From Wenyingzhuangia aestuarii (GTDB lineage Bacteria; Bacteroidota; Bacteroidia; Flavobacteriales; Flavobacteriaceae), in the NCBI RefSeq assembly GCF_011927765.1, contig NZ_JAATJG010000009.1:62001-126000 (forward strand): 64,000 nt of DNA. The letters run 5' to 3'. Every line of letters starts with the position of its first letter. Within the stretch, counting starts at the first letter, position 1. The notes under the pieces were generated by a model. That model ran no database searches and was not told where the DNA came from. It saw only the letters and a list, made by a program, of their open reading frames with translations. Shown piece by piece: positions 28,109 through 33,140 of the stretch. The position numbers were made by a program, and so were the translations under genes.

Positions 28109-29083
28109 TTAAAAAACGTCTTTTAATAATTCTTTTAACTGTTCATCTTCTACCAAAAATCCATCGTGACCATGAATAGAAGTTATTTCTTTATATACTG
28201 ACGAAACTCCCAATTGAGCTAACAAACTATGTGTTTCTCTATTTTCTTCTGGAACAAAAAAGAAATCTGAATCTATTCCTATCTGAATAATTTTAGCATT
28301 AATGGTTTTAGCAACCTCTTCAAAACTTCCTCTTCCTTCAGTAATATCTAGCGTACTTAACAAATGATTTACCATTTGATAAGCTTTTAACTCAAATCTT
28401 TGTTCTAATTTATAACCGTGATGCAACAACCAACTCTCTACGTTAGAAATTCCCAAAGCCTCATTCTGAGTCCTGTTAAATTTCTCTTTAAAAGAGGCTG
28501 CTGTTCGGTAAAACAACATAGCCATCATACGAGCATCGTGAACTGGTTTTTTTGAGTTCATTAAAATTTGCTCTTGCACTTTGTTATGTGCTAAAATCCA
28601 GTCGGTAGCTTTCCAATCCGATGCTATTGGAATTACATAATCTGCTAAATTTGGAAACAACACTGCCATTTCCCAAGCAATACCACCACCTAAAGATCCT
28701 GCTAGAATAGCATGTAATTTGGTAATTTCTAAATCTTCTAACAGCAAACCAAATAACCGAGCAATATCTCTTGCTGTAAAGCTTTTTACATCCTCAATTA
28801 AATTTTCTGGTTTATTGTCGTACCCATTTCCAGGAATGTTAATAGAAATAATAGTGTACTTATCTGTATCTACTAAATTTCCTTTAGACACAATTCCTTT
28901 CCACCAACCGGTGTGCTCCCCTGCCACGTCAGAGTTTCCAGTTAATGCATGATTTACCAACACAATAGGAGCTGTGTGCAATGGTTGTCCAAAAACTTCG
29001 TAAGAAAGTTCTAAACTAGCATAATACACACCTACCAAGGTAGTGTAATCTTTTAGGGTTCTATGTTGTAAACTTTTGTTCAA
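28109..29083 (-). CDS. metX: Homoserine O-acyltransferase MetX (alpha/beta hydrolase)
   Basis: 324 residues, a little shorter than the usual 350-380. The oxyanion segment is 'VNHALTGNSDV', the nucleophile Ser130 lies in LAGSLGGG, the Asp region is 'GIDSDFFF', and the C-terminal His is in 'HGHDGFL'. It acylates homoserine, normally with acetyl-CoA in this family, and feeds MetZ/MetY. First gene of the metX-thrA-metZ operon, whose leader holds the SAM-I riboswitch. Acetyl versus succinyl specificity is not decided by what I can see. Confidence 0.9.
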   Translation of the reverse strand: MNKSLQHRTLKDYTTLVGVYYASLELSYEVFGQPLHTAPIVLVNHALTGNSDVAGEHTGWWKGIVSKGNLVDTDKYTIISINIPGNGYDNKPENLIEDVKSFTARDIARLFGLLLEDLEITKLHAILAGSLGGGIAWEMAVLFPNLADYVIPIASDWKATDWILAHNKVQEQILMNSKKPVHDARMMAMLFYRTAASFKEKFNRTQNEALGISNVESWLLHHGYKLEQRFELKAYQMVNHLLSTLDITEGRGSFEEVAKTINAKIIQIGIDSDFFFVPEENRETHSLLAQLGVSSVYKEITSIHGHDGFLVEDEQLKELLKDVF

Positions 29084-29190
29084 TGTCTTAAAATCATTTA
29101 AAACTCAACCATCTCTATTCTATACAAATGTAGAATGAAATTGTGTAGTGTTTGTAAGTTATCGTGATTTTGTAAGAGAATTGCTCTTGG

Positions 29191-29309
29191 GTTATCTATC
29201 CAACTTCTGTTGGTAGAACGTAGCACCTTCTTTTTAAGAATTTTAGTCTTTCGCTAAAAAGGGTTGCTAAGGCTTCAACGGGTCTATTCCCTCTACCTTT
29301 CATGATAAC
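29191..29309 (-). ncRNA. SAM-I (S-box) riboswitch
   Basis: On the minus strand the RNA begins GTTATCATGAAAGGTAGAGG and contains the hallmark blocks AGAGGGA, GACCCGTTGAAGCC, TTAGCAACC, GGTGCTACGTTC and GATAGATAAC. P1 closes between GTTATC (29304-29309) and GATAAC (29191-29196). It lies about 107 bases before metX and would lower expression of metX-thrA-metZ when SAM is abundant. A short hairpin AAGAG-CTCTT follows P1, but no strong terminator is evident, so control may be at translation. Confidence 0.94.
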
Positions 29310-29335
29310 ATACTTCAATACATAATGAGCTGATG

Positions 29336-31598: not shown

Positions 31599-31634
31599 AA
31601 TATATTTTTAAATAATTTCTAATTCCGTAGTTAG

Positions 31635-31642
31635 CAAATATA
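31635..31642 (-). promoter_or_regulatory. -7 element TATATTTG for metY
   Basis: The minus strand reads TATATTTG, a perfect TAnnTTTG match 37 bases before the metY start. No clear -33 TTG at the expected distance, and no SAM-I elements on this strand. Confidence 0.5.
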
Positions 31643-31725
31643 TAAAAATCTGTTTTCCTTAAGGGGTTATTAAAAATCAATAAAAATAAAGATGCGATAA
31701 AAGGTTCTATATGGTTTCTTTTTTA

Positions 31726-31733
31726 TAATTTTG
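31726..31733 (+). promoter_or_regulatory. -7 element TAATTTTG for metK
   Basis: Perfect TAnnTTTG match. The expected transcription start, about 6-8 bases downstream, falls at the first base of the structured leader at 31740, which supports both calls. Confidence 0.6.
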
Positions 31734-31739
31734 TCGTCA

Positions 31740-31849
31740 CTAAAGGGGAAAGATTTGAACTGATTGCCACCTCTTTTACAATTCTAATTGTAAGAAATAA
31801 AGAGCTAAAGCAGTAATTTTCTACTCCTTTAGCCGACCAAGGCAATCAG
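31740..31849 (+). ncRNA. Structured metK leader RNA, candidate regulatory element
   Basis: CTGATTGCC (31760-31768) pairs perfectly with GGCAATCAG (31841-31849). Inside lie two hairpins: CTCTT...AAGAG with inner TTACAAT/ATTGTAA (31771-31804), and CTAAAGcAGTA/TACTcCTTTAG (31805-31832, one mismatch). Together they make a three-way junction. The 5' end CTAAAGGGG (31740-31748) can pair with 31824-31832 instead, which would open the second hairpin and create a pseudoknot. The element ends 34 bases before metK. I see no SAM-I blocks and do not match it to another class I know. Confidence 0.6.
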
Positions 31850-31883
31850 CACAATAAATATAAATTAATAAACACAAATAGAT

Positions 31884-33140
31884 ATGTCATATTTATTTAC
31901 ATCGGAGTCTGTTTCAGAAGGACATCCAGATAAAATTGCAGATCAAATTTCTGATGCATTGATAGACCATTTTTTGGCTTATGATGCAGATTCTAAAGTA
32001 GCATGTGAAACTTTAGTAACTACAGGTCAGGTGGTATTGGCAGGAGAAGTAAAATCTAAAGCTTATTTAGATGTACAGCAAATTGCACGTGATACCATTA
32101 ATAAAATAGGATATACCAAAGGAGAATATCAGTTTGATGGTAATTCTTGTGGAGTATTATCGGCTATTCACGAACAGTCTCAAGACATTAACCAAGGAGT
32201 TGATAGAGCTAGTAAAGAAGAACAAGGTGCAGGTGATCAAGGAATGATGTTTGGTTATGCAACTAACGAAACAGAAAACTATATGCCTTTGGCTTTAGAA
32301 ATTTCTCATCGTTTGTTAAAAGAATTAGCTGCTTTACGTAGAGAATTAACCGACATTCCTTATTTACGTCCTGATGCAAAAGCACAAGTAACCTTACAAT
32401 ATTCTGATGACAACAAACCAGAACGTATTGAAGCGATTGTAGTTTCTACACAGCATGATGATTTTGGACCCGATGATGAAAGTATGTTAGCTAAAATTAA
32501 GGCTGATATTATTAACATATTAATTCCACGTGTAAAAGCTACTTTTAGCCAAGAAGTTCAAGCATTGTTTGGTGATGATATTAAATTTCACATTAACCCA
32601 ACAGGTAAATTCGTAATTGGAGGACCTCATGGTGATGCTGGTTTAACAGGTCGTAAAATTATTGTAGATACTTATGGAGGTAAAGGTGCACATGGTGGTG
32701 GTGCTTTTTCTGGAAAAGATCCTAGTAAAGTAGACCGTTCTGCAGCTTATGCAACTCGTCATATTGCTAAAAACTTAGTGGCAGCAGGTGTTGCTACAGA
32801 AATTTTAGTACAGGTTTCTTACGCAATTGGTGTAGTAGAACCTATGGGAATTTTTGTAAATACTTACGGAACTAGCAAAGTAGATTTAACTGACGGACAA
32901 ATTGCAGAAATAGTAACTTCTATTTTTGACATGAGACCTTTTGCTATTGAAACTAGATTAAAGTTACGTAATCCTATTTATACAGAAACAGCTGCTTACG
33001 GACACATGGGACGTGCCCCAGAAGTTAAAACTGTAGTTTTTGAATCTCCTTATGAAGGAAGAAAAGAAATTGAAGTAGAAACGTTTACTTGGGAAAAGTT
33101 AGACTACGTAGAAAAAGTAAAAGCAGCTTTTAAACTGTAA
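31884..33140 (+). CDS. metK: S-adenosylmethionine synthetase
   Basis: 418 residues. [14 protein letters not shown] (11-24), '[12 protein letters not shown]' (substrate/ATP loop), and '[20 protein letters not shown]' (P-loop-like, triphosphatase region) are diagnostic. It joins ATP and methionine to make SAM, the ligand of the SAM-I riboswitch 2.6 kb upstream. Longer than E. coli MetK (384) mainly through internal insertions such as the '[17 protein letters not shown]' region, as seen in Bacteroidota. Preceded by the structured leader and closed by a terminator. Confidence 0.96.

Follow-up and report, generated by a model that had tools for sequence, protein, structure and literature searches.

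The metK leader of Wenyingzhuangia aestuarii belongs to the known long-loop SAM-II class and is predicted to carry a competing anti-aptamer strand

In the window analyzed here, a 64,000-nucleotide stretch of the Wenyingzhuangia aestuarii genome, metK lies on the forward strand behind a structured leader RNA. The identity of the gene, judged from its protein sequence, is secure (TIGR01034, 507.3 bits against a cut-off of 309.4), and 65 nt separate the end of the aptamer match in the leader from the metK start. Upstream, a TAATTTTG box, which we take to resemble the Bacteroidetes -7 promoter box, stops 5 nt short of the point where the aptamer begins, in line with the promoter and transcription start proposed in an earlier description of these bases (the sequence-only reading). 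That reading had also recognized metK downstream and a plain SAM-I elsewhere on the contig, and both are where it put them: SAM-I (RF00162) matches at 29189-29311 on the reverse strand, placing SAM-I and SAM-II in one genome and within the window. Behind SAM-I lies a metX-like gene (28109-29083, reverse strand) whose best score, 185 against 500 bits, is far below the NCBIfam MetX cut-offs. The features of the leader and its gene are as follows.

31726..31733, forward strand: TAATTTTG box, identified by sequence, with a presumed likeness to the -7 promoter box
31739..31818, forward strand: SAM-II riboswitch aptamer, long-loop form (RF01726), covariance-model match
31742..31748, forward strand: 5' strand of P1, AAAGGGG, partner of 31770-31776; RF01726 alignment; pairing in 95.9% of cells across the 7 congeners
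31759..31767, forward strand: L1 and 5' strand of P2; conserved motif in the RF01726 alignment
31770..31776, forward strand: 3' strand of P1, CCUCUUU; RF01726 alignment and congener pairing
31777..31792, forward strand: long-loop hairpin (UACAAU/AUUGUA); the minimum-energy fold pairs 31774-31782 with 31787-31795
31804..31814, forward strand: 3' strand of P2, GCUAAAGCAGU; RF01726 alignment and congener pairing
31815..31843, forward strand: strand with 18/29 pyrimidines and 4 G, predicted to be freed upon aptamer formation; putative role in output
31827..31833, forward strand: putative anti-aptamer element 1, CUUUAGC, partner of the P2 3' strand at 31804-31810; hairpin 2, invariant in 7/7
31841..31854, forward strand: putative anti-aptamer element 2, GGCAAUCAG..CAA, partners L1 31760-31768 and 31755-31757; outer stem
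31884..33140, forward strand: metK, methionine adenosyltransferase, TIGR01034

In a scan of the 64-kb window with the 4227 Rfam 15 families, two matches reach the gathering score, RF00162 and RF01726 (SAM-II, long loop). For RF01726 no further match is reported in the genome, and this one covers the full model (positions 1-60 of 60), scoring 47.0 bits where the gathering score is 44. None of the conserved blocks (GAUUUG, GAUUGC and GCUAAAgCAG) is missing, and the one deviation is a C in place of A after UUGC; in the alignment the GAUUUG, GAUUGC and GCUAAAGCAG blocks stand where expected, and the additional long-loop bases can form a hairpin. In the predicted SAM-binding pseudoknot, ACUG and GC of 31759..31767 pair with 31811-31814 and 31804-31805; we wrote these P2 pairs from the motif, and the Rfam structure line shows nested stems only. 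Over the 7 congeners, P2 is paired in 100% of cells and P1 in the proportion given above, and the P2 pairs are invariant, so that support for P1 and P2 within the genus is conservation only, with 0 two-sided changes. The downstream gene, metK, is a SAM/methionine gene. A permissive scan of 31600-32000 (E<=5) returned, besides RF01726, only snR50 and mir-274, chance matches far below their cut-offs; at the same threshold this region has no SAM-I match, and none of the SAM-III to SAM-VI, SAH and MTA classes that Rfam 15 includes matches the leader. A second aptamer or other Rfam class in the 3' part of the leader was considered and dropped, with none found at E<=5.

The metK leader is thus a member of the already known SAM-II class, and it very probably senses SAM. 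The sequence-only reading was right that the leader is structured and is not SAM-I, and mistaken in suspecting a different RNA class: it had named in advance a high-scoring match to a known Rfam class as the result that would speak against this, and RF01726 matches over the whole model, exceeding its cut-off by only 3 bits. The departure after UUGC lies at 31768, which is C throughout the genus (7/7) and A in 190/223 metK leaders (TTGC[A]ACC). This C may bear on SAM binding, and it gives the anti-aptamer stem one further pair.

The leader is present in 7/7 genomes of the genus, in six by Rfam and in the seventh by DNA similarity; in this seventh genome, which gives no RF01726 match, the loop of the leader is much longer, and the long loop differs in length and sequence among congeners generally. 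Hairpin 2 is invariant at 11/11 pairs in 7/7 leaders, and the outer stem at 6/9 pairs. The outer stem reaches 9/9 only in the window, the other six leaders having 8/9 with the mismatch within the middle three pairs. At 31844-31846, each of these six is one base off the perfect complement (ACT, CAT, ATT, AAA, ACT, ATT); the imperfection may be deliberate or may be chance. A third helix, joining the 5' strand at 31740-31748 to 31824-31832, has 84.1% standard pairs over the 7 congeners. Among the seven leaders there are no two-sided changes in hairpin 2, the outer stem, P1 or P2. The genus alone therefore neither proves nor refutes these helices. Such a lack is expected: ligand binding fixes the aptamer strands, and changes should fall mainly on the other side. 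Element 2 of the window stands out against shuffles (p 0.005 for the 9-nt match, p 0.015 for duplex energy), and among the six genus leaders tested in this way (G005 left out) only the window has a duplex p below 0.02, the other five ranging from 0.0498 to 0.30.

The minimum-energy fold of 31736-31890, at -31.1 kcal/mol, is far more stable than shuffles (-19.9 +/- 3.5 kcal/mol, z -3.25, 0/200 as stable) and contains the outer stem, hairpin 2 and the loop hairpin. Much of the architecture drawn in the sequence-only reading is therefore recovered: the 9-bp outer stem (31760-31768 with 31841-31849) is perfect in the window, and hairpin 2 pairs 31804-31810 with 31827-31833 and has a further 4 bp inside. 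The other hairpin, which had been placed at 31771-31804, exists as the long-loop hairpin, but with the predicted pairs 31774-31782/31787-31795 and not the outer pairs of 31771-31804. What changes is the meaning of this architecture. The outer stem takes 31760-31768, that is L1 and the P2 5' strand, and hairpin 2 takes 31804-31810 within the P2 3' strand. Since the outer stem crosses P1 and both helices occupy P2 strands, the three-way fold cannot coexist with the SAM-II pseudoknot. The junction had been offered as the sensing fold; by this modeling it is most likely the ligand-free competing fold, an anti-aptamer, and not the sensor. Likewise, the proposed pseudoknot of 5' strand and outer stem gives way to the P1/P2 pseudoknot of SAM-II.

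With P1 enforced and the P2 strands reserved, the fold reaches -15.3 against -31.7 for the free fold, a comparison in which the energy of P2 and of the ligand is uncounted. This gap suggests that the switch may be decided during transcription and not at equilibrium. In equilibrium, ligand-free folds of the growing transcript, P1 has a probability of 0.58-0.42 for transcripts ending at 31810 to 31825 (0.50 at 31815-31820) and of 0.00 at 31830, and the outer stem and hairpin 2 have a probability of 1.00 once 31850 is transcribed. The last aptamer base emerges at about 31814, so that SAM would have to act while roughly the next 15 to 35 nt are transcribed; because P1 is at 0.00 by 31830 in the ligand-free fold, this time may be short. 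The helix 31740-31748/31824-31832, which the sequence-only reading had drawn as a competitor of hairpin 2, is predicted at 0.75-0.88 in transcripts ending at 31835-31845 only and falls to 0.00 from 31850. Its conservation is lower, the outer two pairs failing in 3/7 and 5/7 congeners, and we discarded it as a lasting part of the structure; it is predicted to be a passing folding intermediate.

Long-loop SAM-II leaders are common among relatives. RF01726 is found in 283/299 genomes drawn from the family Flavobacteriaceae, 275 of them over the cut-off, and in 52/60 relatives from genus to order; the named metK relatives are labelled Bacteroidetes in 79/80 cases and Verrucomicrobia in one, the first two listed being a Tenacibaculum and a Polaribacter. 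Of those 299 family genomes, 234 carry SAM-I and 283 carry SAM-II, and 6/16 genomes lacking SAM-II carry SAM-I (rows read by eye), leaving 228 with both. At five places in relatives (G235:C6:154740-155031, G103:C2:569208-569517, G107:C1:2736104-2736395, G202:C1:1569158-1569467 and G238:C1:275823-276130), SAM-I and SAM-II lie about 125-140 nt apart on opposite strands, facing apart, so that a single intergenic region there holds two different SAM sensors. One small genome (G010) has two SAM-II; one of them precedes a gene whose start, by eye, resembles that of the window's metY, and at this locus (L032) GTCAAATC again lies downstream of the aptamer.

Beyond the genus, we compared the 5' half of the aptamer with the region from aptamer to start codon, against dinucleotide shuffles, in metK leaders drawn from 263 loci. 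These loci lean toward high-scoring Rfam matches, because the better-scoring matches were the ones listed, and include 120 further listed places that were added. Dropping seven loci without a recognizable aptamer pattern (L059, L066, L071, L096, L098, L108, L115) and 31 without a recognized metK start left 225, of which 223 pass a stricter pattern and 222 have at least 20 nt downstream; removal of near-duplicates gives 180 leaders, with the window's own as sole representative of its genus. Among the 222 leaders, 142 reach p<=0.05 by duplex energy (69 of them p<=0.01) and 92 by longest exact complement. In the non-redundant set, 108 of 180 reach p<=0.05 by duplex energy where 9 are expected, 57 reach p<=0.01, and the median p is 0.03; on the energies of the 222-leader test, p<=0.05 is reached by 22/45 leaders from named contigs and by 90/135 of the others. 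Controls at p<=0.05 give 16/180 with the downstream region reversed, 15/180 with the aptamer half reverse-complemented and 0/180 with the first 60 bases of metK, two of the three being above the expected 9. The remaining 72/180 leaders have no significant pairing. Taken singly, the parts of the aptamer show less: L1 alone reaches p<=0.05 in 49/180, a weaker enrichment, and GCUAAAGCAGU alone gives 28/180 against 17/180 in the reversed control, a mild one.

Recurrent motifs account for two ways of pairing. Of the 180 downstream regions, 72 contain CAAATY (shuffle mean 22.9, max 35), 46 contain GCAATY (shuffle mean 9.8, max 17) and 16 contain both, and the double element of the window's type, CTYTAG followed by GCAAT within 18 nt, occurs in 21/180 (shuffle mean 0.13, max 1, 100 rounds). 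The two registers strike different parts of one loop, which argues that complementarity itself is kept. The aptamer form sought is present in 145/223 leaders, and in the 68 of these with CAAATC downstream, the base before GATTTG and the base after CAAATC are A-T in 35, A-C in 5, G-C in 18, G-T in 2 and others in 8 (Fisher test on four cells, 5.4e-9, species kinship uncorrected); a slightly wider pattern applied to the non-redundant leaders gives A-T 27, A-C 3, G-C 12, G-T 1 and others 8 (3.5e-7, likewise uncorrected). The base before ATTTG and the base after CAAAT also fit, with counts of G-C 52, G-T 11, G-A 3, A-T 7, A-A 4 and A-C 1. A third position fits poorly: T after ATTTG is accompanied by A before CAAAT in 3/10 only, although A after ATTTG goes with T before CAAAT in 51/65. 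By sequence comparison, then, one aptamer base varies together with its presumed downstream partner in related leaders. The covariation anticipated for the three stems appears only in this wider set and in the other register, the genus itself having no two-sided changes. Leaders also pair better with their own downstream regions (mean duplex energy -17.81) than with swapped ones (-15.19; 0/2000 permutations as low), a comparison that, like the Fisher and shuffle tests, leaves the shared ancestry of species uncorrected. These patterns suggest a widespread anti-aptamer platform across related metK leaders.

Our model builds on the computed family membership, on the pairings with their mutual exclusion and on an anti-aptamer strand that recurs across many related leaders; SAM binding, the OFF logic and the output step are what we infer. 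We propose, as a likely reading, that the long-loop SAM-II element is an OFF switch of metK and that the downstream strand holds the anti-aptamer fold when SAM is scarce. With SAM plentiful, transcription to about 31814 would let the nascent leader fold into the P1/P2 pseudoknot with SAM inside, and closing of the pseudoknot would turn metK down, as the class suggests. With SAM scarce, the strand 31827-31854 would capture both P2 halves, 31804-31810 through hairpin 2 and 31760-31768 through the outer stem, and the resulting three-way fold would allow metK expression. As to output, the freed pyrimidine-rich strand may promote early, probably Rho-dependent, termination, decided co-transcriptionally. 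The composition of 31815-31843 (18/29 pyrimidines and 4 G), together with the presence of rho in the genome, makes Rho-dependent attenuation our first guess, and no intrinsic terminator was found in 31600-32000. We rank this output ahead of a translational one, and hold it tentatively, at somewhat under an even chance.

A translational output would have SAM binding free the downstream strand to re-pair near the start codon and lower initiation. We regard this as possible, at perhaps one chance in three: structure tunes initiation in F. johnsoniae, according to PMC6847099, the start region is less accessible by more than 0.15 without the aptamer in 14/180 leaders (the opposite holds in 2), and three leaders (L008, L018, L023) have, by eye, a stem whose 3' arm adjoins the ATG. 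In the window, however, modeled start-region accessibility is 0.48 in both states, and over the 180 leaders the mean shifts by 0.013 (0.555 against 0.542), in a model that ignores pseudoknots and ligand; we set start-codon sequestration in the window aside on this same equality. The region between aptamer and initiation site in the window has a predicted mean unpaired probability of 0.51 in the full leader and 0.75 with the aptamer removed. Another rival is plain direct occlusion, in which the SAM-closed P2 itself blocks initiation and downstream complementarity is incidental. This is the SAM-II model given in a review (PMC10907184) and the one put forward for the compact metX SAM-II RNA, but it is improbable here, given the 65 nt between the aptamer match and metK, the description of Bacteroidetes mRNAs as having no Shine-Dalgarno sequences (PMC6847099), and a downstream complementarity that exceeds shuffles in 108/180 leaders and varies together with the aptamer.

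The idea of an undescribed ligand-binding class with the three-way junction as its sensing fold draws on the stability of the fold (z -3.25) and on the large share of the sequence conserved in the genus. Yet the same bases are covered by RF01726, the strands conserved in the genus downstream of the aptamer include those complementary to it, and the downstream strand of related leaders is directed at a different register of the aptamer, which fits anti-pairing and not a fixed junction; we consider such a class very improbable. Returning to the SAM-II switch with a distal anti-aptamer strand, a broader hypothesis, which we put forward with less than even confidence, is that Flavobacteriaceae SAM-II leaders share an undescribed platform: a downstream strand would capture the pseudoknot loop, using one of at least two registers (GUCAAAUC or GCAAUCAG), and in one group, including the window, also the P2 3' strand, and a one-time co-transcriptional decision, possibly Rho-coupled, would replace Shine-Dalgarno occlusion. 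In the open-access literature, supplements aside, we found no description of a distal anti-aptamer for long-loop SAM-II, nor, going by titles and abstract openings among the papers listed, one on SAM-II switching in Bacteroidetes. If confirmed, a family-wide anti-aptamer would show how a riboswitch class commonly portrayed as a direct block of ribosome-binding sites works where such sites are absent, and its two short elements are open to mutation and compensation.

Compared with known systems, the metK leader is an ordinary member of its class, and the switching arrangement is what deserves note; the sensor is settled as a known one, with the three-way fold explained as a competing state. Long-loop SAM-II (RF01726) is listed for Bacteroidetes and marine sequences by Weinberg et al. 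2010 (PMC2864571), and the window's leader resembles it in its full-length match, P1, L1, P2, long loop with hairpin, downstream metK and Bacteroidetes host, differing in the C at a usually-A position and in an anti-aptamer strand that lies outside the Rfam model. With the SAM-II or metA motif (RF00521) described by Corbino et al. 2005 (PMC1273637) it shares a single stem plus pseudoknot, a promoter a few nucleotides before P1 and an association with methionine/SAM genes; many members of that family are reported there with putative intrinsic terminators, whereas the window has none that we found in 31600-32000. Accounts of SAM-II describe intrinsic terminators as often lying downstream (PMC1273637, PMC2258182, PMC9373788) or, for direct occlusion, a ribosome-binding site inside P2 (PMC10907184). 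The SAM-I element at 29189-29311 on the reverse strand (72.3 bits) also senses SAM on the same contig, but it belongs to a different Rfam family and precedes the metX-like gene. The compact metX SAM-II from the Sargasso Sea metagenome is likewise an H-type pseudoknot with SAM in P2 (PMC10907184, PMC9373788); there, the Shine-Dalgarno sequence lies within P2, whereas the window's leader has its start codon 65 nt farther on and would depend on a distal strand for switching.
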